From: Bacteroidota bacterium
Lineage (GTDB): Bacteria > Bacteroidota > Bacteroidia > Bacteroidales > UBA1715
NCBI GenBank assembly: GCA_009786075.1
Contig: WQTX01000003.1
Coordinates: 16,308-80,307 of the forward strand
DNA length: 64,000 nt
Direction of reading: 5' to 3'
Under the pieces are notes generated by a model. It ran no database searches. It was not told the DNA's origin and was given only the letters and a program-made list of their open reading frames with translations. Positions 1 to 51,958 of this stretch are shown piece by piece (the stretch's first letter is position 1; every line of letters starts with the position of its first letter). The position numbers and the translations under genes were made by a program.

Positions 1-576
1 GTGTTGGTTGTCATCCGAAATTTGCTATTGATAATAATGTTGCTTATAGTATATAGACAATCAGGCACTTATCAATATTGTTTTACTCTGTGGATTACAG
101 TGGTAATTATTTGTGTAATAAGTATATCCTCATTTTTTATGGGTTATAATTATTATCCGCCTTTCGTTTCATTAAATAATGATGTCGATAGCAACTACGA
201 AGGCAAAATACTTTCCGAAACACCGTTAAGCAACTTTATTACGACTTCCAAAGATTCCACTTATTTGTTGTTTATATTTTCTTACATTTGTCCGCATTGC
301 CTCAATTCCATTGAGAATTTGAAACAATATGAAAATGCAAAAGTTGTAGATAGAGTTATTGGTTTAGTGGCGCAAGATTCTGTATATGAAGTAATTTTTA
401 AACAAAACTTTCAAGTTGAATTTCCTATCAAGCATTATGACCATCAAACTATTTCATCAATAGCAAAAGGTTTGCCTACAACTTATTACATAAAAAACAA
501 TGTTATAAAAAAAGAAATAATAGGTGAATTGCCTTGTGTTTATAACTTTACGAGGTTATACTATAATAATGAATAA
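1..576 (+). CDS. Membrane-anchored thioredoxin-fold-like protein with CPHC motif, probably 5'-truncated by the window edge
   Basis: ORF open from base 1; hydrophobic N-terminus; FSYICPHCLNSIENL resembles a Trx/DsbA active site. Confidence 0.5.
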   Translation: MLVVIRNLLLIIMLLIVYRQSGTYQYCFTLWITVVIICVISISSFFMGYNYYPPFVSLNNDVDSNYEGKILSETPLSNFITTSKDSTYLLFIFSYICPHCLNSIENLKQYENAKVVDRVIGLVAQDSVYEVIFKQNFQVEFPIKHYDHQTISSIAKGLPTTYYIKNNVIKKEIIGELPCVYNFTRLYYNNE

Positions 577-693
577 TTGTCTAATTAAAAAAATGATATT
601 GTTATTGAACGGCAAAGAAAAAACTTTGCCGTTTTTTTTAATTGATAAAACGTGTAAGAAATTTTTATATCTTTGTGAAAAATTATACACAAT

Positions 694-1015
694 ATGTGGT
701 CTGATTGGAAAGAGAATGTCAAGCCGAATGCGCAAATTCCTCGAAAACTCCTTTGGGACGTTGATTGGAACAATTTCGATGTGCAAAAAAACAAAAAAAA
801 TGGTTGTGCAGCGGGTAATTGAATATGGTTTGCCCGAAGATTATAACACAATGTTTAATTTGTATGGCGGCGTTTCGGGAGTTCGGAAAATTGTTAAAGA
901 AATTCCGTATTTCCGCTACCCTCAAGATATTTCCTTTATTTGCATGGCTTTTAATTTAAAAAAAGAAGATTTAGAATGTTACAAACGCAAACAGTTGAGA
1001 AAACAAGGTTTTTGA
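694..1015 (+). pseudogene. DUF6922-like small protein split by a one-base frameshift in an A-rich run
   Basis: Frame 1 from ATG 694 reads MWSDWKENVKPNAQIPRKLLWDVDWNNFDVQKNKK then NGCAAGN*; frame 2 continues as MVVQRVIEYGLPEDYNTMFNLYGGVSGVRKIVKEIPYFRYPQDISFICMAFNLKKEDLECYKRKQLRKQGF*; the switch lies at caaaaaaacaaaaaaaatgg. Confidence 0.6.
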
Positions 1016-1082
1016 AACCGCACCCTGTTGATTTACCCTAATTCCTCGTTTCCTAATACCTATTCCCTAACCCCTAATTTAT

Positions 1083-2642
1083 ATGAAAAAAACCACAATC
1101 CTCTGGGCAGACGACGAAATTGAACTGCTCAAACCGCATATTTTATTTTTAGAAGCAAAAGGCTACGAAGTAATAGCCGTAAATAGCGGCACCGATGCCG
1201 TTGAAAAATGCAATGACCCCAATATTGACATTGTGTTTTTAGACGAGCAAATGCCCGGAATTACGGGTTTGGAGGCGTTGGCGCAAATAAAACGCATTAA
1301 CCCCAACGTGCCGGTGATAATGATTACCAAAAGCGAAGCCGAAGATATTATGGAGGCGGCAATTGGTTCGCAAATCAGCGATTATTTGATAAAACCGGTT
1401 AATCCGAATCAGATTTTGCTTTCAATTAAAAAAAATCTTGACCAAAAAAATATTATCACGCAACAAACCACGCAGAATTACCAAGCGGAATTTTCGCAAT
1501 TGGGAATGAAAATTTCGAGTGCCGACACATGGCAAGATTGGATTGCGGTGCACAAAGAACTCACACATTGGGAAACCAAACTTTCGCAATCGAAAGACCG
1601 CGCAATGAATTCGGTGTTTGTGATGCAGAAAAATGATGCCGATGTGCAATTTGCAAAATTTATAAAACGAAATTACATTGATTGGCTCGACCGCAACAAC
1701 GACGATAAACCGATACTTTCGCCAAATGTGTTCAAAGAAAAAGTGTTCCCAAACATAAAAAAAGGCAAACAAACCTTACTGTTGGTAATTGATAATTTGC
1801 GTTACGACCATTGGTGCAACCTGCGTCCACTGCTGAGCGAATATTATAACATACAGGACGATGCGCAGTATTACAGCATTTTGCCCACCTGCACACAATA
1901 TGCCCGCAACTCGCTATTTGCCGGACTTATGCCTTTGGACATCGAAAAAATTTACCCCGAATTGTGGCGCAACGACGATGATGAAGACGAACTTAAAAAT
2001 CAATACGAAGAAGAATTGCTTGCGGCACAACTCAAACGATTGGGCTATACCGACAAATTTTTCTTTGAAAAAATCACCAGCATCAACCCCGGACGGCGAG
2101 TAACCGATAAATTGCAGGCAATTCAGCAACATCAATTTTCGGTTATTGTCTATAATTTTGTGGACACACTTTCGCACGCGCGCACCGAAATGGACATGAT
2201 AAAAGAACTTGCTGCCGACGAAGCTGCTTACCGTTCGCTTACCTATTCGTGGTTTACGCACTCCACGCTTTTTGAGCTTTTGCAGGAACTTTCGCAAAAA
2301 AATATCGACATAATCATTACCACCGACCACGGTTCGGTACGTGTGCAAAATCCTATAAAAGTGCTTGCCGACAAAACGGTAACATCGAATTTGCGTTACA
2401 AGCAAGGTAAAGCCCTGTCGTACAACCCCAAAGAAGTGTTTGAAATCAAAAAACCGCACACGGCGCATTTACCAATGGTCAATTTGAGTTCAACCTATAT
2501 TTTTGCCACCAATCAAGATTTCTTTGCCTACCCGAATAATTTCAATTATTATGCAAAATATTATCGTGATAGTTTTCAGCATGGCGGTGTATCGTTGGAC
2601 GAAATAATTATTCCTTGTGTGCATTTGCAGCCTAAAAAATAA
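1083..2642 (+). CDS. porX: PorX-like response regulator with C-terminal PglZ/alkaline-phosphatase-like domain (T9SS regulation)
   Basis: N-terminal receiver domain (ILWADDEIELLKPHILFLEAKGYEV, VFLDEQMPG) followed by LLLVIDNLRYDHW and IITTDHGS motifs. Confidence 0.9.
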   Translation: MKKTTILWADDEIELLKPHILFLEAKGYEVIAVNSGTDAVEKCNDPNIDIVFLDEQMPGITGLEALAQIKRINPNVPVIMITKSEAEDIMEAAIGSQISDYLIKPVNPNQILLSIKKNLDQKNIITQQTTQNYQAEFSQLGMKISSADTWQDWIAVHKELTHWETKLSQSKDRAMNSVFVMQKNDADVQFAKFIKRNYIDWLDRNNDDKPILSPNVFKEKVFPNIKKGKQTLLLVIDNLRYDHWCNLRPLLSEYYNIQDDAQYYSILPTCTQYARNSLFAGLMPLDIEKIYPELWRNDDDEDELKNQYEEELLAAQLKRLGYTDKFFFEKITSINPGRRVTDKLQAIQQHQFSVIVYNFVDTLSHARTEMDMIKELAADEAAYRSLTYSWFTHSTLFELLQELSQKNIDIIITTDHGSVRVQNPIKVLADKTVTSNLRYKQGKALSYNPKEVFEIKKPHTAHLPMVNLSSTYIFATNQDFFAYPNNFNYYAKYYRDSFQHGGVSLDEIIIPCVHLQPKK

Positions 2643-2646
2643 TTCC

Positions 2647-3060
2647 ATGCCCAGCATTTGCATATTATCATTGGACGAAATTCAAAAAAGTGCCAAAGAA
2701 TTTCTAAAACTCATTGGCACTCATAAAATTATAGCATTCAACGGACAAATGGCTACCGGAAAAACTACGTTTATAAAAGCGCTATGCACACAACTTGGCG
2801 TACAGGAAAGCACCACAAGTCCAACATTTGCGTTGGTAAACGAATACGAAACCGCTCAAAACGAAATCATTTACCACTTTGATTTATATCGTATAGAACA
2901 ACTCGAAGAATTGCTCGACATAGGTTTTGAAGATTACGTTTACAGCAATAATTTTTGTTTTATAGAATGGGCAGAAATTGCACGACCATTGTTGCCGGAC
3001 GATACGCTTTGGGTAACTTTGAGTATTGACGAAAATAGACAGCGGAAATTGGAGTTTTAA
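2647..3060 (+). CDS. tsaE: tRNA threonylcarbamoyladenosine biosynthesis ATPase TsaE
   Basis: Walker A GQMATGKTTFIKAL, SPTFALVNEY, HFDLYRI, FIEWAE. Confidence 0.9.
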   Translation: MPSICILSLDEIQKSAKEFLKLIGTHKIIAFNGQMATGKTTFIKALCTQLGVQESTTSPTFALVNEYETAQNEIIYHFDLYRIEQLEELLDIGFEDYVYSNNFCFIEWAEIARPLLPDDTLWVTLSIDENRQRKLEF

Positions 3061-3063
3061 TAA

Positions 3064-3236
3064 CAATGTCGTTTAGTTAAGGAATTTTTAAACCTTCGTG
3101 TCTTCGTGCCTTTCTGTCTTCGTGTTTATTTTTTGCGCGCAAGCGCGTTTTAGTAAACACGAAGGCACGAAGACAGAAAGACACGAAGAAAATTTATTAT
3201 CAATTCTTGATTCATATTCTTAACTAAACGACATTG
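3064..3236. repeat. Compound inverted repeat, family D (AATGTCGTTTAGTTAAG outer arms, CTTCGTG-word inner arms)
   Basis: caatgtcgtttagttaag (3064-3081) is the reverse complement of cttaactaaacgacattg (3219-3236); inner arms at about 3094-3128 and 3154-3189 are built from CTTCGTG/TCTTCGTG/CCTTTCTG words. Confidence 0.9.
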
Positions 3237-3282
3237 GTTTTAATAATTTATAATTTACAATTAATAATTTATAATTAATTCG

Positions 3283-3290
3283 TACTTTTG
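3283..3290 (+). promoter_or_regulatory. Candidate Bacteroidota -7 element upstream of rpiB
   Basis: TACTTTTG matches TAnnTTTG, about 24 bp before ATG 3314. Confidence 0.4.
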
Positions 3291-3313
3291 CGCAAAATCA
3301 ATTGAAAATAAAA

Positions 3314-3745
3314 ATGGAACGTCCGAAAATTGCAGTAGCAGCCGACCACGCAGGTTTTTATATGAAAGAACTTGTTTTCAAGTATTTAATTAAAGAAGGA
3401 TATGATGTAAAAGATTTTGGCGCATATTCCGACGACGCGGTTGATTATCCCGATTTTGCCCATGCGCTTGCTTTTGCGGTTAATAATCATGAATACGACT
3501 ATGGTTTTTTATTTTGCGGCTCGGGCAATGGTGTGAATATGGTTGCCAACAAACACAAAAATGTGCGTTCGGCTTTGTGTTGGGAAACTGAAATTGCCGG
3601 ATTAGCGCGAGCGCACAACAATGCCAATGTCTGTGCCATTCCCGCTCGGTTTATCAGTGCTAACGAAACATTGAACGTTGTAACAGCATTTTTGAACACC
3701 CAATTTGAAGGTGGACGGCATGAGCAACGGGTGGCGAAAATCTAA
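3314..3745 (+). CDS. rpiB: Ribose-5-phosphate isomerase B
   Basis: IAVAADHAGFYMKE, DFGAYSDDAVDYPDFA, CGSGNGVNMVANKHKNVRSALCW. Confidence 0.93.
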   Translation: MERPKIAVAADHAGFYMKELVFKYLIKEGYDVKDFGAYSDDAVDYPDFAHALAFAVNNHEYDYGFLFCGSGNGVNMVANKHKNVRSALCWETEIAGLARAHNNANVCAIPARFISANETLNVVTAFLNTQFEGGRHEQRVAKI

Positions 3746-3795
3746 TAATATAATTGCTGGATTGCTTCGTTCCTCGCAATGACGCCCGAATAAAA

Positions 3796-3875
3796 CGTCA
3801 TTCCTGCGAAGGCAGGAATCCCCTCAAAAAAGCAACACTAACCAATGGGAGATTCCTGCCTTCGCAGGAATGACG
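3796..3875. repeat. Palindromic element, family B (CGTCATTCCTGCGAAGGCAGGAAT)
   Basis: cgtcattcctgcgaaggcaggaat...attcctgccttcgcaggaatgacg inverted arms; second copy at 11465-11568. Confidence 0.95.
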
Positions 3876-5273: not shown

Positions 5274-5287
5274 TACTTTTCCCCCTT

Positions 5288-5320
5288 AACTTTTCCAAAG
5301 TTTAGAACTTTGGAAAAGTT
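5288..5320. repeat. Short palindrome, family C
   Basis: aacttttccaaagtttagaactttggaaaagtt; further copies at about 30640 and 44106. Confidence 0.9.
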
Positions 5321-5362
5321 TATTTGCCGGAAAAAGTTTATTTGCCGATAAAAATTATCCCG

Positions 5363-7338: not shown

Positions 7339-7349
7339 GTGTTAGGGAT

Positions 7350-7457
7350 TTACGCTAATGTGCCAATGTGATAATATGCCAATTTGCCAATTTGTTAATG
7401 AATAAATGTGTTAATTATTTTATTGTCGAATTGGCACATTGTTATATTGGCACATTA
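7350..7457. repeat. Palindromic word array, family E (GCCAATNTG words)
   Basis: gctaatgtgccaatgtgataatatgccaatttgcc... mirrored by ...ggcacattgttatattggcacatta; occupies the spacer between two minus-strand genes. Confidence 0.8.
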
Positions 7458-7459
7458 AT

Positions 7460-9853
7460 TTATTTTTTTCTAAATAATCGAAACCGTTTTTTCGTTTTAT
7501 CATCATTATAAGAATAATATCCATACCCAAAACCATACCCGTAGCCGTAACCATATTGCGAATAGCTATACCCTTGATAATTGTAGCCGTAGCGAGCCGT
7601 AATTATTTCAATGGCATTGAGTACAATTGAAAGATTATCAATATTATTTTTGTTTTTTATATAATTCACGTTGTTCAAGAAATTGCGTTTTGAAACATTG
7701 GCACGTACAACGTAAATCGGCAAATCGGCACGTTTAAAACTAAAAATAGCATCGGAAACAATTCCAATTGGCGGTGTGTCGATTATAATTACATCGTATT
7801 CGGTTTTCAAATCGTGTAATAGTTTATCGAAATTTTCGGAATTGGCAAGTTCGGCAGGGTTTGGCGGAACGGGTCCCGAAGTGAGAATATCGAAATTTTC
7901 CAATTCAGTTTTTATAATACAATCTTTGTAATTATCAACACCTATAAGTATGGTACTTAGTCCTTTTTTATTTTCGGCTTTAAACGAAAGATGCACTTTT
8001 GGCTTACGCAAATCCATATCGAGTAGAATTACCCGTTTGTTGTTGAACGATATAACACCTCCTAAATTGATGGCAATAAAAGTTTTTCCTTCTGCCGGAA
8101 TGGTTGAACTTATGGCTATAACTTTGGGGTAGGTGTCGGTTTGTTGTATAAATTCCAAATTGGAGCGTAGCGTGCGAAACGCTTCGGTAATAATCGAATC
8201 GGTTTTATTTTCAACCGTAAAACGCTGAATTTTATTTACATGCGGTGTTGTAGGAATAAGTCCGCTAACCGGAGCATCGGTATATTTTGTAATATCGCTG
8301 AGTGTTGTTATTTCATTGTAAAGTATATAGCGCACAAACGTGAGGAGTCCTATTACAAAAAGACAAATAATAAAACAAATTGCTACAACACTCGATAGAA
8401 TAGGAGCAATGGGTGTTTTGGGAGGATTTGCACGTTGTAAAATCACGCTGTTGCTTATGTTCCCGGCTTTTGAAATCAAATATTCGGCACGTTTTGCAAT
8501 CAATTCGTCGTAGTAATTTTGGTTGATTGAATGTATGCGGGCAAGTTTTGAAAATTCCGTTTCGTCAAAATTGATTTCGCCGGTGTGGTTCAAAGCGTTG
8601 AGGCTTGCCAATTTTTCACGTAATTGGCGGTTATTGTTTTTTATAAATTGTTGCAGCAATTCGCGTTGTTCGACAATTTGCTTGTCTATAATTTTTATTT
8701 TTTGGTTTTCAGGAGTAACGGTCATCAATAGTTCCGAACGTTGTTTTTGCAGTTGGTCTATGCCGTTCAAAAAATTCAAAAGCAACGTTTCGGCGTTTGT
8801 GCCGGCAAGCAAAGCCGTCAGTTCGCTTGTGTTGAGCGTGTTGGTGGAGTTGAGTTCGTTTGTAAGTCGCTGTAACGACGAAAGTTGCGCTTGGTAATTT
8901 TCTATTTCTTGGCGAGTTTTGCTGTCGAAAAGCAGCGACGATTTGTTCAAAGCCGCTGTTCCGGTAATGTTGTGTGCTTTTTTGAAATTCGAAAGTTCCC
9001 TTTCCGATTCGCCGAGTTTGTCGTACACAATTTTAAGTTGTTCTTCTATAAAATCAAGTACTTTGAGCGCACGTTCCTGTTTTTTTTCAACATCGTAAAT
9101 CAAAAACATTTCGCTTATAGTGTTCACAATGTCGGCTGTTTTTTGCGGATTGAAATTTGTGTATGAAATTTGTATGGTATTAGCATCGCTGTTCAAAATT
9201 GAAATCTGCAATTTGGTGTCAATATGCTTTTTAAATGCAGTTTCGTCATCATATCGTATAAAAAAGAAATTGTTTGCCGGTTCAAAAAAAGCGTCTTCAT
9301 TTACTATATTTACATAAATTTTTGCTCCCGAAATTTGTTGCCATGTATTGCGCTCAATTTGTGTGCTAATTTCATTTTTGCCGTCAATTGAGTAAGTTAA
9401 TTCCACCAATTTTGTTTTTTTATTAATGCTTACATAAATAGGCCGGTTGTAAAAACTTGATTGAATTTCGTCGAGTTCTACAAAAAAAGGAGCGCTGTTG
9501 TAGAATTCCGATGTTAAAACATTTCCTTTGGAATAATAGCCGGTGTAAAGATTGAGTTTTGTAAGCGTACGTTTCAAGAATTCTTGCGAACGCAGCAATT
9601 CAATGGTAGTTGAAAGCGAATTTCTACCGTAAAGATTTTCGGTTTTTAAAAAATCGTTAGTCTGCTCATTATTGATTTGAATAACGGTAAATGCTTGATA
9701 CTTGGGCTGTGTATAACGCAAATAAAGAAAAGTGCCGCCAATTCCCAAAAGAATGATAGCAATATAAAAAATAAGATTTAATTTTATAACGTGTATAAAT
9801 TTCCCAAATTCAAAGGTGTCGTTTAAAACCGGTATATGTTTTTGCTTTGCCAT
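7460..9853 (-). CDS. Wzc-like polysaccharide copolymerase / BY-kinase
   Basis: Wzz-type N-terminus; kinase motifs ISSTIPAEGKTFIAINL, LLDMDLRKPKVH, DVIIIDTPPIGIVSDA; Tyr/Gly-rich tail. Confidence 0.92.
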   Translation of the reverse strand: MAKQKHIPVLNDTFEFGKFIHVIKLNLIFYIAIILLGIGGTFLYLRYTQPKYQAFTVIQINNEQTNDFLKTENLYGRNSLSTTIELLRSQEFLKRTLTKLNLYTGYYSKGNVLTSEFYNSAPFFVELDEIQSSFYNRPIYVSINKKTKLVELTYSIDGKNEISTQIERNTWQQISGAKIYVNIVNEDAFFEPANNFFFIRYDDETAFKKHIDTKLQISILNSDANTIQISYTNFNPQKTADIVNTISEMFLIYDVEKKQERALKVLDFIEEQLKIVYDKLGESERELSNFKKAHNITGTAALNKSSLLFDSKTRQEIENYQAQLSSLQRLTNELNSTNTLNTSELTALLAGTNAETLLLNFLNGIDQLQKQRSELLMTVTPENQKIKIIDKQIVEQRELLQQFIKNNNRQLREKLASLNALNHTGEINFDETEFSKLARIHSINQNYYDELIAKRAEYLISKAGNISNSVILQRANPPKTPIAPILSSVVAICFIICLFVIGLLTFVRYILYNEITTLSDITKYTDAPVSGLIPTTPHVNKIQRFTVENKTDSIITEAFRTLRSNLEFIQQTDTYPKVIAISSTIPAEGKTFIAINLGGVISFNNKRVILLDMDLRKPKVHLSFKAENKKGLSTILIGVDNYKDCIIKTELENFDILTSGPVPPNPAELANSENFDKLLHDLKTEYDVIIIDTPPIGIVSDAIFSFKRADLPIYVVRANVSKRNFLNNVNYIKNKNNIDNLSIVLNAIEIITARYGYNYQGYSYSQYGYGYGYGFGYGYYSYNDDKTKKRFRLFRKK

Positions 9854-10817: not shown

Positions 10818-10925
10818 AGAACGAGTTGACAAGTTGACAAGTTAACAAGTTGACGAGGAAACAAGTTGACGAGGGTGGTAGAGTAGTGCCTTGTCAACTT
10901 GTTTACTCGTTAACTCGTCAACTTT
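10818..10925. repeat. Palindromic word array, family F (GTTGACAA/GTTGACGA words) overlapping a gene 3' end
   Basis: acgagttgacaagttgacaagttaacaagttgacgagg... mirrored by ...ccttgtcaacttgtttactcgttaactcgtcaact. Confidence 0.88.
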
Positions 10926-12178
10926 TTATACAATCTGTCCATATCATTGCACAATCGTTGATATGAAAATTGTTGTATGGAATGATTTTGAGATTCCTGC
11001 GCCATTGTTTTTCGCAGATTTTCATTGTTTATAAGCGATAAAAGTTTTTCGCTAAATTCTTCTGTATCAAGCGAAGAGAGTAGGGCTGTTTTGTTTTCAA
11101 CAACAATATCTTGAATGCCGCCTACGTTGGTGCTTACAATTGGTTTTCCGGCGGCTTGTGCTTCAATTAAACTTACGGGCGTGCCTTCGTTGAACGATGT
11201 AAGGCAAATAATATCAAGTCCGGAAACGGCACGGTCTATATCGTGAATCCATGATGTGAACGTTATTAATTGCTCGGAGATTCCAAGTGATTTGCAATGA
11301 TTTTCCAAATTCTGCCGTTCTTCGCCGTCGCCAATAATAAATGCTCGAATTGGTTGTGAAGTTTTTTGTGCGCAATTGTGAATGGCATCAATGAATAACT
11401 TGTGATTTTTTATAGGAGCTAATCGCCCTATAATTCCAATGGCTATAATATCTTCCAAAAAGCCCGTCATTCCTGCGAAGGCAGGAATCTCCTCGGAAAA
11501 GCACTTTTGTTTATCAGGAGATTGACTTCGTCGAGGGCTTTGCCGTTCCTGCCTTCGCAGGAATGACGCAGAGAGCTGATACTGCTGGCGAAAGTTGGCT
11601 CGTTTTTCGTCTTGATTTTCGGTAAATTTGCGCAAATCGAAACCAAGTGGAATGACGTGAATTTTTTCAGGTTTGCAAATTTTATACACCGTTCCCAAAT
11701 CGTGTTTTTGCGTTTCGGAAATTGCCACGATTGCCGTGCTTAATCGAGCTAAAAATCGTTCAATAAGAATAAAAATTTTTGTTTTTGTTTTTCCAAAATA
11801 GGAGTGAAACACGTGTCCATGAAAGGTGTGCACAATTATTGGTACACCACAATACCATGCCGCCAATCGCCCCAATGCACCGGCTTTGGCAGCGTGTGTG
11901 TGCACAATGTCGGGTTTTTCTTGGCGAATAATTTTTACAATTGCGCGCCATGCGGCAATATCGCCGAAAATGCCAATGCTCCGTTTCATAGAGGGTAGTA
12001 GCGTATAGGGAATGTTCATCTGTTGCAAAAGAAATTCCGAATCGCTTTCGCTTTCGTCTTTTTCGCCGCCAACGAGAATAGTGGTATATTCTTCGGGCAA
12101 ATATTTGCTCAAATACGCAGCATTGTGCATAGGTCCGCCAAGGTTGAAACGGTTGAGTATGCGAAGGATTTTTGGCAT
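10910..12178 (-). CDS. Glycosyltransferase family 4 (GT-B) with an in-frame palindromic insertion
   Basis: MPKILRILNRFNLGGPMHNAAYL, VHTHAAKAGALGR, IIGRLAPIKNHKLFIDA, TSFNEGTPVSLIEAQAAGKPIV; internal SFLRRQERQSPRRSQSPDKQKCFSEEIPAFAGMT is family B DNA. Confidence 0.88.
   Translation of the reverse strand: MPKILRILNRFNLGGPMHNAAYLSKYLPEEYTTILVGGEKDESESDSEFLLQQMNIPYTLLPSMKRSIGIFGDIAAWRAIVKIIRQEKPDIVHTHAAKAGALGRLAAWYCGVPIIVHTFHGHVFHSYFGKTKTKIFILIERFLARLSTAIVAISETQKHDLGTVYKICKPEKIHVIPLGFDLRKFTENQDEKRANFRQQYQLSASFLRRQERQSPRRSQSPDKQKCFSEEIPAFAGMTGFLEDIIAIGIIGRLAPIKNHKLFIDAIHNCAQKTSQPIRAFIIGDGEERQNLENHCKSLGISEQLITFTSWIHDIDRAVSGLDIICLTSFNEGTPVSLIEAQAAGKPIVSTNVGGIQDIVVENKTALLSSLDTEEFSEKLLSLINNENLRKTMAQESQNHSIQQFSYQRLCNDMDRLYKKLTS
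11465..11568. repeat. Palindromic element, family B, translated in frame inside a glycosyltransferase gene
   Basis: 23-bp arms cgtcattcctgcgaaggcaggaa / ttcctgccttcgcaggaatgacg flank a distinct centre. Confidence 0.95.
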
Positions 12179-12185
12179 TTTATTA

Positions 12186-12288
12186 GATAATTTAGAACGC
12201 AGATGACACGGATAACGCGGATTTATACGGATAAAACGATTAGAAATCTGTGTCAATCCGTGTCATCTGCGTTATTCGCGTTCTCATT
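12186..12288. repeat. Inverted repeat, family G (GAACGCAGATGACACGGAT)
   Basis: gaacgcagatgacacggataacgcgga... mirrored by ...tgtcaatccgtgtcatctgcgttattcgcgttc. Confidence 0.88.
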
Positions 12289-15829: not shown

Positions 15830-16882
15830 TTAAAACGCCTTAATTTTTTCCACCAACAATACATTTTCTTCATGCGTGCCAATAGTTATGCGCAAGCAAT
15901 CTTCGCACAATTCAATTTTCGAGCGGTCGCGAACAATAATGCCGTTTGCTACCAAGTATAAATATAGCGCATGCGCATCATTTATTTTTACTAACACAAA
16001 ATTTGCATCGCTCGGGTAAATTTTTTGCACTGTTTTTATTTGTTGCAATTGCTCAACAAGCCACGCACGTTCGTGCAAAATATCGCGTACAAAAATATCT
16101 TTTATCGATGCGTGTTGTTCCAAAATTTCTTGTGCCAGGGTTTGCACAATGCCATTCAAATTGTAAGGCAATTTTATTTTGTTGATTACGGCAATTACTT
16201 CTTTTGAGGCAAACATTATTCCCAAACGAATATTGGCAAGTCCCCATGCTTTTGAAAATGTTTGCAACACAATCAAATTCGGGTATTGCGCCAACGAAAG
16301 CGTCCACGAAGGCTCGTCGGCAAAATCTATATAGGCTTCGTCAACAATTACCATTCCCGAAAAATTGTTCAAAATATGTTCAATATCAGCACGTTTTATA
16401 AGATTTCCCGAAGGATTGTTGGGCGAACAAATCCAAATTAACTTTGTATGTTCATCAATTGCTTGCATAATTTTCTCAGTTTGTAACTGAAAATCTTCAG
16501 TCAGCGAAATTGATACACAACGTATATCGTTAATATCTGCCGAAACGCTGTACATTCCGTAGGTTGGCGGACAAATAATAGCCGTATCAACGCCCGGATT
16601 GCAAAATGCTTTGAAAATCAAATCAATACCCTCGTCGCTACCATTGCCAAGAAAAATTTGGTTGGCAGGAACGCCTTTTATTTGTGCAACTACTTGTTTC
16701 AAAGGAGTTTGATACGGGTCGGGGTAACGGTTATTAGCACTGCCGTCAACTGCACCAAAGGGATTTTCGTTAGCATCGAGATTAACCAACGCCACGCCGC
16801 TGTATTCATCACGAGCGGTGGAGTAGGGGCGAATGTTTTTTATGTTTTCACGGAGGAGTGTTGAAAGTGAAAAATTTTTCAT
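15830..16882 (-). CDS. hisC: Histidinol-phosphate aminotransferase
   Basis: LDANENPFG, NRYPDPYQ, LGNGSDEGIDL, CSPNNPSGN, VDEAYIDF, QTFSKAWGLANIRLG. Confidence 0.93.
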   Translation of the reverse strand: MKNFSLSTLLRENIKNIRPYSTARDEYSGVALVNLDANENPFGAVDGSANNRYPDPYQTPLKQVVAQIKGVPANQIFLGNGSDEGIDLIFKAFCNPGVDTAIICPPTYGMYSVSADINDIRCVSISLTEDFQLQTEKIMQAIDEHTKLIWICSPNNPSGNLIKRADIEHILNNFSGMVIVDEAYIDFADEPSWTLSLAQYPNLIVLQTFSKAWGLANIRLGIMFASKEVIAVINKIKLPYNLNGIVQTLAQEILEQHASIKDIFVRDILHERAWLVEQLQQIKTVQKIYPSDANFVLVKINDAHALYLYLVANGIIVRDRSKIELCEDCLRITIGTHEENVLLVEKIKAF

Positions 16883-17066
16883 TTGTTTAGTTTTTTAAGG
16901 TAGGGGCGATGCCTGTGTGCTCGCCCGATTAAGATATTTATTGTTCAAGCAAGGGGTTTATCTCAAATGCCAAAGTTACTATTTTTTCTGTCTCGTTGTT
17001 GTCCTCCTGTACACAAAATTGTCATTTTTTGCAAAACTGTCAGATTGTGCCGAATCAAAACCCAAC

Positions 17067-19304
17067 TCACATATTCAACACCCTCGTCCCCTCATTCGCT
17101 CTAAACGCAGGTTTATAAAGCAAGATATACGACGAACTATACTCCGAATGTCCTTCAACATCAAGAATTACCTCAAAACGGTCGGTCGCTTCCCAGTAAG
17201 GCAGGCGAAAACGGACTGTCGGTCCTGCTACGTTCGTATTGGGTTCGGCTACGGGACTTTCCCATTTCATAATCACTTCTTCTCCTTTGGCTGGTTTTAG
17301 CTTTACCGATATTTTTAGCGATGGAACTTCTTTGAATGTGTCGTTCAACACATAGATGTCTGCAAAAAAGTCTTCTCCTTCATTCCATTGGAACTTGCTG
17401 AAGCGCGCGCTGGCAAGAACGGGACGGCACGATGCCGATATGGTGTCATAAGCCGGTTTTTTGATATTCGGATATGCAAGTATCGAATTATTTACTGCGG
17501 CAGCCCACGGTTCGTTGTAGCACCAGTTTATAGCCATGGCGCAATATGGTTTTTGACGGCGCGCTTCCTCGTAGATAGCTTTATAACCCTGAGATTGTAA
17601 TAACTGGCTTTGTTGCACGAGCGTTTCCAAATTTGGTGCTTTTCCGAAATAACTTTCAATATCATTCAGTGAAAGCCATGTATCGCCCACCCATGCGCCA
17701 TAAGCATGATGGTCGCGCCATGCCGTATGGTCGCGAGGCGGGAAGAGGTCTTTTGCAGGAATAATTTTTTTCAACACCTCTACGGGCGACATTCCCGGCA
17801 TGCCAAATTCGGTGTAAGCCGTAAAACGGGCGTTGTTTATAGTTTTATATACTTCGGTTTTTCCGTCGAAATCTACAAAGAGGTAATGCCCGTGTCCCAT
17901 TCCCATTATAGGTGCGGTGGCGTTGAACGGAATGGTGGGATTCAGTTCGAGGCACAGACTGTTGAGCAAGCGTAGCGGCAGCGATTGGTCAGTCATGCGC
18001 GACCAGTCGTTAAACAGTTCATTACCTCCGCACCAGAGAGCGGTGGAAGGATGTTGCCGCAAGCGTTTGATAATCGAAGTTGCTTCCTGCCTCAATATTT
18101 TTAGGTAATGCGGGTCGTCGGGGTAGTTGTTGCAAGCAAGCGGGAAGTCTTCCCAGACTAATATTCCCCGTTCGTCGCACAATTCATGAAACGATTCTTT
18201 ATTGATAATACTGCCGCCCCATACGCGGAAGATATTGAAATTCAGTCCTATTGCCAAGTCAATTAATTCTTCGTACCGTTCGCGGGTAATGGTTCCGAAA
18301 AATATTTCGGGGTTTACCCAGTTGGAGCCTTTGACAAAAATCCGCTTCCCGTTAATTTCAAACTGTGCGGGAGGCACCGAACGCGTTTTTGGGAAAGTAC
18401 TCGGTTCTTTCCATGCTCCTTCATTCATAACCAAACGCACTCTTTTAAATCCGGTTTTCTGACTTTTCGCGTCTATTACATTGCCCGACCGGTCGTGCAG
18501 TTCGAAGTGAGAGGTGTAGAGATAAGGCATTCCGTGGTCGTGCGGAAACCACAGGGCGGGATTGTCGAAAACAATCGGATTGCCGGTAAATAGGTCGGCG
18601 GCGATTTCGCCTTTTTGTGTCAGTACCGTACTGCCGCTTTGGTCTTTCAGCGTCCATGAATAGGTCAGTCCTTTTACGTTTCTTCCTTCTCCCTGCAATT
18701 GAATGAAGGCTTTATCTAACGAATTATTCAGCTCGTAAGATACATATATATCGGTCAGGTGCGAACGATTCCGAACCATCAGTCCCGTTTCGTCCCAAAT
18801 TCCCAGCGGGACTAACCGCGGATGCCAGTCCCACCCGTAGCTTACGGCAGGTTTAACCACATGAGCCGCCTGCGAACGGTCAGTCGGCTCCTTTACCATT
18901 TTGGGAACAGGGTGTACAATAATTTTCAACACATTTTCTTCCTTCAGAAAATCGGTAATGTCAATGTCCACGTATGTAAACATTCCTTCTTGCTGATGAA
19001 TAAACTTGTCATTGAGATAGATTTCAAACTCGTAATCTATTCCTTTTGAGAAAAAAAACACTCTTTCGAACTCTTCCAGTACCGGTTTTTTGAAAGAAGA
19101 AAGATAGGTATAGAACCGGTCTTCCATCCATAAAAACATTTTGTAATTGTCGGCATATTCGTATGGAGGATATTTTTCCGCCTTAGCAATATCTAATTGC
19201 ACGGCGCCGGGTACCTGCGCGGGTACAAACTTTGAAGGCGCTTTTGATTTATCGGGTGAGTAACCTACTTGCCATTCTAAGGCTTGTGCGAATTTGCAGT
19301 CCAT
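17067..19304 (-). CDS. Glycoside hydrolase family 2, beta-mannosidase-like
   Basis: VSYGWDWHPRLVPLGIWDE, FNIFRVWGGSIINKESFHELCDERGILVWEDFPLACN, HPSTALWCGGNEL. Confidence 0.88.
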   Translation of the reverse strand: MDCKFAQALEWQVGYSPDKSKAPSKFVPAQVPGAVQLDIAKAEKYPPYEYADNYKMFLWMEDRFYTYLSSFKKPVLEEFERVFFFSKGIDYEFEIYLNDKFIHQQEGMFTYVDIDITDFLKEENVLKIIVHPVPKMVKEPTDRSQAAHVVKPAVSYGWDWHPRLVPLGIWDETGLMVRNRSHLTDIYVSYELNNSLDKAFIQLQGEGRNVKGLTYSWTLKDQSGSTVLTQKGEIAADLFTGNPIVFDNPALWFPHDHGMPYLYTSHFELHDRSGNVIDAKSQKTGFKRVRLVMNEGAWKEPSTFPKTRSVPPAQFEINGKRIFVKGSNWVNPEIFFGTITRERYEELIDLAIGLNFNIFRVWGGSIINKESFHELCDERGILVWEDFPLACNNYPDDPHYLKILRQEATSIIKRLRQHPSTALWCGGNELFNDWSRMTDQSLPLRLLNSLCLELNPTIPFNATAPIMGMGHGHYLFVDFDGKTEVYKTINNARFTAYTEFGMPGMSPVEVLKKIIPAKDLFPPRDHTAWRDHHAYGAWVGDTWLSLNDIESYFGKAPNLETLVQQSQLLQSQGYKAIYEEARRQKPYCAMAINWCYNEPWAAAVNNSILAYPNIKKPAYDTISASCRPVLASARFSKFQWNEGEDFFADIYVLNDTFKEVPSLKISVKLKPAKGEEVIMKWESPVAEPNTNVAGPTVRFRLPYWEATDRFEVILDVEGHSEYSSSYILLYKPAFRANEGTRVLNM

Positions 19305-26421: not shown

Positions 26422-26506
26422 ATCTAATATGCTAATAAGTTAATATGCCAATATGCCAATAGTCATTAATTGGTATATTATCTTATTGGCATATTGGCAT
26501 ATATCA
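26422..26506. repeat. Palindromic word array, family E (ATGCCAAT words)
   Basis: taatatgctaataagttaatatgccaatatgccaat... mirrored by ...attggcatattggcatata, filling the gap between two minus-strand genes. Confidence 0.85.
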
Positions 26507-30622: not shown

Positions 30623-30639
30623 CTATTTTTATCGTGTAT

Positions 30640-30672
30640 AACTTTTCCAAAGTTTTAAACTTTGGAAAAGTT
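30640..30672. repeat. Short palindrome, family C
   Basis: aacttttccaaagttttaaactttggaaaagtt. Confidence 0.9.
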
Positions 30673-30675
30673 TGC

Positions 30676-44068: not shown

Positions 44069-44243
44069 AAAGCCCCCTAAATCCCCCTCAAGGGGGACTT
44101 AAACAAACTTTTCCAAAGTTTAGAACTTTGGAAAAGTTACAGTTGCGAAACAAAGAAAACAAGTAAATAAGATGACAAATAAACAAGATAAAAACAACTC
44201 TGTTCCTTCTCCTCCCCTTGAGGGGGAGGCTGGGAGGGGGCTT
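44069..44243. repeat. Family A element with family C palindrome nested inside
   Basis: aaagccccctaaatccccctcaagggggactt[aaacaaacttttccaaagtttagaactttggaaaagttac]...ccttctcctccccttgagggggaggctgggagggggcttt. Confidence 0.93.
44106..44138. repeat. Short palindrome, family C, nested in family A
   Basis: aacttttccaaagtttagaactttggaaaagtt identical to 5288-5320. Confidence 0.93.
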
Positions 44244-50358: not shown

Positions 50359-51750
50359 ATGAATCTCGATTTACAAACATATTTTACCAACGAACTCCAA
50401 GGAATTACTTCGGGAGAGGAATTGTGCGCATCGTTGCAAACAACAAGCCCAACAAGTATTCGAGTAAATCCAAATAAAATAACACAAACGTTGTCTTTAG
50501 AGCAGGTGGCATGGTGCGAACAAGGCTACTATTTACCACAACGCCCAAAATTCACGCTCGACCCTGCGTTTCATGCCGGAGCATATTATGTGCAAGAGGC
50601 TTCTTCCATGTTTTTGGAGCAGATTGTAAAACCGTTGGCTGTTCGTCCGCTTAAAGTGCTCGATTTGTGTGCCGCTCCGGGTGGAAAATCAACGCAATTG
50701 ATTTCGCTTATGCAGCGTGGCAGCGTGCTTGTGGCAAATGAAGTGATTCAATCGAGGGCGCAGATTTTGTCGGAAAATCTCATCAAATGGGGGAAATCGA
50801 ATTGCGTAGTAACCAACAACGACCCCAAAGATTTCGGGTTTTTAGAAGGATTTTTCGATATTGTGGCGGTTGATGCGCCTTGTTCGGGTGAAGGAATGTT
50901 TCGCAAAGACCCTGCTGCTATCGGTGAATGGAGCGAGACACATGTGGATTTGTGCAGCAAACGCCAAACTCGCATTTTGTACGACATTTGGAATTGTGTG
51001 GCTCCGGGTGGAACTTTGATTTACAGCACCTGTACGTTCAATCAGAAAGAAAACGAAGATGTGATTGCCAATTTCCTGCAACAAACCGGAGCAGAATGTA
51101 AGCATATTCCGTTGCAAAAAGAATGGAATGTGGTAGAACACGAAAAAAACGGAGCCGTGTGTTACCGGTTTTTTCCACACAAAGTGCAGGGCGAGGGTTT
51201 TTGCGTAAGCGTTATACAAAAACTTGCCGGTAAAGAATTTGAACCGCCGCGTAAACAGGCGCAAAGCAAGGCAATATCTATTATTCCACAAAAAAACAGA
51301 CTTCATTATTCCAATTTGGTAAACGACGAAAGTGTGGTATATGAACGGCACGCGGGAATAATATGGTCGTTTTCAAAAGAATATCGCAAATTTTTGCTCG
51401 ATATTTTTGCACATTGCCGAGTGGTGCATGCCGGTATTCCGCTGGTAGAAACTATTGGGCACAAACTCAATCCCCTGCCCGGATTGGCATTTGCAAGCAG
51501 TTTCAATCAAACTATTTTACCAAAATACGAGATTGATTTACCAATCGCCCTACGTTATTTTAAAAAAGAAGCATTGACACTCGAAAATTTGCCGTCGAAA
51601 GGCTGGATACATCTTGTATATAAAGGTATTTCAATAGGCTTTGTTAAAAACATTGGGAATAGAGCGAATAATCCCTACCCTGCGGCGTGGGCTATTAAAA
51701 TGAATTTGCAGGAGGAATTGATGTGGTCGGTTGTCAATATGCCAATGTGA
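50359..51750 (+). CDS. RsmF/NOL1-NOP2-Sun family rRNA cytosine-C5 methyltransferase
   Basis: VLDLCAAPGGKSTQLISLM, VDAPCSGEGMFRKDPAAIGEW, LIYSTCTFNQKENEDVI. Confidence 0.92.
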   Translation: MNLDLQTYFTNELQGITSGEELCASLQTTSPTSIRVNPNKITQTLSLEQVAWCEQGYYLPQRPKFTLDPAFHAGAYYVQEASSMFLEQIVKPLAVRPLKVLDLCAAPGGKSTQLISLMQRGSVLVANEVIQSRAQILSENLIKWGKSNCVVTNNDPKDFGFLEGFFDIVAVDAPCSGEGMFRKDPAAIGEWSETHVDLCSKRQTRILYDIWNCVAPGGTLIYSTCTFNQKENEDVIANFLQQTGAECKHIPLQKEWNVVEHEKNGAVCYRFFPHKVQGEGFCVSVIQKLAGKEFEPPRKQAQSKAISIIPQKNRLHYSNLVNDESVVYERHAGIIWSFSKEYRKFLLDIFAHCRVVHAGIPLVETIGHKLNPLPGLAFASSFNQTILPKYEIDLPIALRYFKKEALTLENLPSKGWIHLVYKGISIGFVKNIGNRANNPYPAAWAIKMNLQEELMWSVVNMPM

Positions 51751-51873
51751 TAATGTGCCAATAAGTTAATGTGCCAATGTGCCAATAAGTCAATTGGCTG
51801 ACGCACAAATTTATTTTATTGGCACATTGGCATATTATCACATTGGCATATTGGCACATTGGCATATTCAAAA
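51737..51873. repeat. Palindromic word array, family E, overlapping the 3' end of the rsmF-like gene
   Basis: caatatgccaatgtgataatgtgccaataagttaatgtgccaatgtgccaataag... mirrored by ...ttattggcacattggcatattatcacattggcatattggcacattggcatattc. Confidence 0.92.
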
Positions 51874-51958
51874 ACATTTTCCAAAAACCCTATTTCATTA
51901 CAAAAAAAAATGTTTCTTTGCAAAATTATTGTAACCATCAGAGATATACGTAAGCACT

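Follow-up and report, generated by a model that had tools for sequence, protein, structure and literature searches.

An in-frame CGTC-1 REP dimer within a glycosyltransferase gene of a Bacteroidales genome

The palindrome at positions 11465-11568 of the window (the whole stretch of DNA analyzed, 64,000 nucleotides long) is composed of two inverted CGTC-1 REPs that form a head-to-head dimer with the CGTC tags outermost, like a REPIN, and it lies in frame within a glycosyltransferase gene. The element is of a known kind, the CGTC REPs, and represents a clear new example rather than a new system. The interpretation preferred here, with a probability of about 0.88, is that the CGTC-1 dimer is a non-autonomous, MITE-like mobile palindrome, the glycosyltransferase copy of which has persisted at a place where frame and fold tolerate it. 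The features considered are the following.

10910..12178, minus strand: GT-B family 4 glycosyltransferase gene with the insert, 422 aa, ATG at 12178 (Pfam, fold matches).
11456..11569, minus strand: stretch of 38 codons (114 bp) that homologues lack, its ends placed to within a few codons (six-frame search, pairwise and multiple alignment).
11465..11568: CGTC-1 REP head-to-head dimer, REPIN-like palindrome (sequence, genome family, folding).
11465..11490, plus strand: left REP (sequence; fits the CGTC-1 definition, PMC3733652).
11465-11468, plus strand: CGTC tag of the left REP (sequence).
11469-11476, plus strand: stem ATTCCTGC of the left REP (sequence).
11477-11480, plus strand: loop GAAG of the left REP (sequence).
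11481-11488, plus strand: stem GCAGGAAT of the left REP, then tail CT (sequence).
11545..11568, minus strand: right REP, inverted (sequence).
11568-11565 and 11564-11557, minus strand: CGTC tag and stem, respectively, of the right REP (sequence).
11556-11553 and 11552-11545, minus strand: loop and stem, respectively, of the right REP, final pair mismatched (GCAGGAAC) (sequence).
11491..11544: spacer, which holds the GACTTCGTCGAGGGCTTTGCCGTT module (listing of all copies).
3796..3875: second CGTC-1 dimer of the window, intergenic, 80 bp (sequence).

The palindrome measures 104 bp, with CGTC and GACG at its exact ends. Its 23-bp arms, CGTCATTCCTGCGAAGGCAGGAA (11465-11487) and TTCCTGCCTTCGCAGGAATGACG (11546-11568), are perfectly complementary, as the preliminary description had indicated, and each of them is itself a hairpin with the structure CGTC-ATTCCTGC-GAAG-GCAGGAAT. 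Defining traits of CGTC-1 REPs are a terminal, unpaired tag (CGTC, TGTC or CCTC), a 4-nt loop and a stem of 8 bp whose first pairs are AT; they have a short unpaired tail, mostly CCA, and are chiefly found as head-to-head dimers repeated in the genome (PMC3733652). The spacer module GACTTCGTCGAGGGCTTTGCCGTT is common to most copies of the 87-102-bp class. When folded as single-stranded DNA, the palindrome gave -37.4 kcal/mol, compared to -14.3 ± 2.5 for shuffled sequences (z = -9.1), and when folded as RNA it gave -56.2 (z = -7.7). The related intergenic element at 3796-3875 was also recovered from the sequence, and the reading-frame listing contained no ORF of 60 aa or longer across it.

Concerning the glycosyltransferase, its Pfam domains were Glycos_transf_1 and Glyco_transf_4, its fold matches were GT4 structures, and its best named match in another collection (56% identity) was in a MAG of Bacteroidales obtained from horse faeces, which suggests that the genome belongs with that order. 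On the minus strand the frame has no stop in the palindrome and reads SFLRRQERQSPRRSQSPDKQKCFSEEIPAFAGMT within the 422-residue GT-B protein. In a six-frame search of 60 related genomes, the best homologues matched residues 1-204 and 243-421 only, with none matching in between, and in several of them the two halves abut exactly (e.g., G005, 16324-16932 and 16933-17466). Two genomes of the same genus, G001 and G002, encode homologues that are about 74-85% identical on either side of the insert, and pairwise alignments with them yielded a net gain of exactly 38 codons; of these 114 bp, 102 bp are the dimer core and 12 bp are additional. The insert residues were absent from the glycosyltransferase homologues of 13 out of 13 family relatives and from 19 more distant proteins shown in the multiple alignment, other phyla included; no homologue aligned across the site has them, contrary to the first refuting condition set in the preliminary description. 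The earlier claim of a palindrome translated in frame within the gene is thus sustained concerning the open frame and the inserted nature of the residues, translation itself being predicted. A target-site duplication was looked for at the insertion and none was seen. An AlphaFold2 model of the protein (mean pLDDT 91.2) showed both Rossmann domains intact and placed residues 223-240, with pLDDT below 50, between the last N-domain-side helices and the first C-domain strand (245-250). The insert is predicted by this model to lie in a disordered linker between the two Rossmann domains.

The repeat family was surveyed in the whole genome (3.18 Mb, 176 contigs, estimated contamination 5.76%). With up to 2 mismatches, the 20-nt hairpin was found in 91 copies, versus 0 for a reversed-pattern control, so the copies are not due to chance. 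A looser pattern, applied to the family, returned mostly chance matches and was left out of the results. The 91 hairpins group into about 51 elements, 34 of which are inverted dimers of 65-102 bp with the tags outermost, while no tail-to-tail dimers were seen among them. The other elements look like single REPs, but several prove to be hybrid dimers of a CGTC-1 hairpin with a different hairpin, e.g., GCGGGTCAAGCCCGC or CCGCATCAAGTGCGG, within a GTCATT...AATGAC frame. The hairpin variants differ mainly in the loop (GAAG, GAAA, GTAG or GCAG), and a tail is present, mostly with the sequence CTC or CCC. The copies are for the most part intergenic, with a minority in genes. The outward flanks of the dimers are not random: the first outward position (the C of CGTC) is G in 92% of the arms, and motifs that are A-rich or read CTTTTT are found repeatedly outside the dimers, to a distance of about 13 nt. 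This points to a mobile unit slightly larger than the dimer.

Reading frames were listed through all copies, and the search for repeat-encoded peptides within other proteins, proposed in the preliminary description, was productive in at least three further genes. A LuxE-like gene has gained 28 codons in frame, a cysteine-rich protein resembling YkgJ about 35 residues, and an esterase resembling BioG about 18-29 residues; the relatives lack these three insertions and, in the BioG-like case, differ among themselves in the region concerned. Repeat-encoded residues in MurE (N-terminus), AsnB, RibD, an OmpA-like protein and a gamma-carbonic-anhydrase-like protein (C-terminus) are candidate insertions; for RibD, comparison with PDB relatives did not show an insertion, as the residues encoded by the repeat stand in place of a variable loop. 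The LuxE, YkgJ, BioG, OmpA and gamma-carbonic anhydrase names come from reading the sequences, without a family search. The left arm is read in all three frames (SFLRRQE, RHSCEGRN and VIPAKAG), so there is no single favored peptide. Selection for stop-free frames was considered and rejected: dimers have 1.7 open frames out of 6 and dinucleotide shuffles have more (2.15), which speaks against any special coding character of the sequence. Nor does the divisibility by 3 of 23 of the 34 dimer lengths count as evidence of selection, because the copies share descent. In annotated proteins, the peptides SFLRRQE, PAFAGMT and RHSCEGRN become recognizable as translated repeats; no paper on the literal peptide PAFAGMT was found in the literature searched. 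The LuxE-like gene (L191, G000:C60:6098-7186) shows a second small in-frame gain, FLPVAERSR, of about 8-9 residues and absent in G001, which seems to be the translation of a further repeat family.

The parallel with Rickettsia palindromic elements (RPEs) drawn earlier is right in kind and goes beyond analogy, while the earlier interpretation as a whole was borne out in part. The parallel holds for RPE-6 of Rickettsia conorii, which Di Nocera et al. (2013) assigned to CGTC-1 together with dRS3 of Neisseria (PMC3733652), and not for the longer RPE-1 type. With CGTC-1 REPs, including dRS3 and RPE-6, the elements described here share the CGTC tag, the 8-bp AT-starting stem, the 4-nt loop, the head-to-head dimers, the intragenic in-frame copies and the lack of a dedicated transposase; they differ in the tails, mostly CTC or CCC instead of the usual CCA, in the Bacteroidales host lineage, and in that some copies are hybrid dimers with other hairpins. 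With the RPE-1 type they have in common the in-frame insertion of short palindromes into genes unrelated to each other, where the protein structure is predicted to tolerate them, and with RPEs generally the absence of the in-frame palindromes from homologues, seen here in the glycosyltransferase, LuxE-like, YkgJ-like and BioG-like genes. However, according to figures of Ogata et al. (2000, 2002) as quoted in passages of PMC10969869 and PMC3733652, RPEs are about 150 bp long and nearly half of them are in ORFs, whereas the present elements have 65-102 bp and only a minority are in genes. The surprise implied earlier at a Bacteroidota host is not warranted, since CGTC REPs have been known in Bacteroidetes, with intragenic copies in several other species, since the work of Di Nocera et al. 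(2013) (PMC3733652), and the same 24-mer was found here in 29 of 297 sampled Bacteroidota genomes, in up to 221 copies (reversed control, 0). Closer to the host, the CGTC-1 REP was found in 10 copies in G001, not in G002 (a genome 79% complete) nor in the other 11 family genomes, and it was rare in a sample of the order. This patchy spread is typical of mobile DNA. By comparison with insert-free homologues, in-frame entry of CGTC REPs into Bacteroidales proteins, as known from Rickettsia, is documented for a minimum of four genes in a single genome, and a genus with 91, 10 and 0 found copies, the third genome being 79% complete, offers a tractable setting to study CGTC REP mobilization.

An inverted pair of hairpin REPs as a non-autonomous unit is also characteristic of the REPIN/RAYT (TnpAREP) system, which differs in having GTAG-type tags and a linked RAYT: the present elements carry CGTC tags, and no RAYT flanked by REPs was found. 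The latter was looked for with the Y1_Tnp profile (PF01797), which covers Y1 enzymes only, in this genome and in a set of 24 genomes, with inspection of flanks. The genome has six stand-alone Y1_Tnp genes (one of them short) plus one embedded Y1 domain; no CGTC-1 REP occurred within about 1.5 kb of these seven loci (where flanks were that long), and no cognate RAYT flanked by the same REP was found in the assembly with PF01797. Across the 24 genomes the Y1 count does not track the REP count, e.g., G002 has 4 Y1 and 0 REPs, and G001 has 1 embedded Y1 and 10 REPs. A RAYT link was therefore rejected. The REP-free Y1 loci and the lack of correlation agree with the published view that CGTC REPs have no dedicated transposase (PMC3733652), so the mechanism of movement is something we infer. 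That the family is actively moving by means of an unrecognized dedicated enzyme, that the moving unit extends past the dimer into about 12-15 nt of conserved outward flank, and that proteins of this lineage repeatedly gain new linkers by in-frame insertion, is a combined reading that appears unlikely. As a separate observation, the embedded Y1_Tnp (HUH) domain of locus L225 (G000:C51:1-6000; 1-3378, plus strand) is in frame within a 1125-aa ORF resembling type IIG/MmeI-Eco57I methylases, with repeated TTREQAPLS/TTRVLAPLS peptides before the NPPY motif. Y1 matches also occur in ORFs of similar length (about 1,000-1,270 aa) of G001, G077, G097 (three), G039 and G059; the reading as a methylase applies to the G000 copy alone.

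Returning to the preferred reading of a non-autonomous mobile palindrome, CGTC-1 REP dimers would have spread through this Bacteroidales lineage, possibly by way of a single-stranded hairpin intermediate and with an HUH-type or other transposase acting in trans, and one copy would have inserted into the glycosyltransferase gene, where it probably persists as about 38 translated, disordered residues. Three features would have saved the enzyme from destruction: the net gain of 114 bp is divisible by 3, the palindrome can be read through in one frame with no stop codon, and the insertion falls in a flexible linker between the Rossmann domains. The insert may be near neutral for the glycosyltransferase. 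Most copies hitting genes would presumably have been lost by selection, leaving mainly intergenic copies and an in-frame minority. It could be argued instead that the inserted peptide is adaptive and was positively selected for a new property of the glycosyltransferase, such as regulation or partner binding. The frame is open, the host domain sequences are well conserved, and Di Nocera et al. (2013) raised an adaptive idea of this kind for REP-tagged DNA repair genes (PMC3733652); but the proteins hit are unrelated, the left arm is translated in each of its three frames, the insert is predicted to be disordered, and no second genome carries it against which conservation of the peptide could be measured, all of which makes adaptation highly improbable. 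A main role as an mRNA hairpin (pausing, decay or attenuation of a polysaccharide operon), with the residues as a by-product, would suit the very stable RNA fold and the view of REPs as RNA elements near gene ends (PMC3733652). However, a translating ribosome would melt a hairpin in this mid-gene position, most copies are intergenic, and the relatives have no palindrome in the glycosyltransferase gene, so that such a role has very little probability. Finally, an assembly chimera or contamination joining two genes through the repeat, conceivable with 176 contigs, 5.76% estimated contamination and arms of repeated sequence, is extremely unlikely, because the flanks follow each other as the two halves of a single conserved gene, collinear with gap-free homologues, and independent genes have the same kind of insert.

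Other palindromic repeats are present in the window. Two of other families bracket the glycosyltransferase gene (10830-10925 and 12187-12285), a GTTGACAAGTT-type repeat overlapping its 3′ end and a GATGACACGGAT-type repeat lying immediately before its start. A different hairpin repeat, GGATTGCTTCGTTCCTCGCAATGACG (3759-3784), is separated from the intergenic CGTC-1 dimer by about 12 bp; in locus L150 the same sequence is paired with an arm of CGTC-1. The 8-bp-periodic arrays AATGTGCC/AATATGCC face their own inverted copies, forming long palindromes at 7349-7464, 26424-26502 and 51712-51875, and the palindrome AACTTTTCCAAAGTTTAGAACTTTGGAAAAGTT occurs in three near-identical copies, at 5287-5321, 30639-30673 and 44105-44139.
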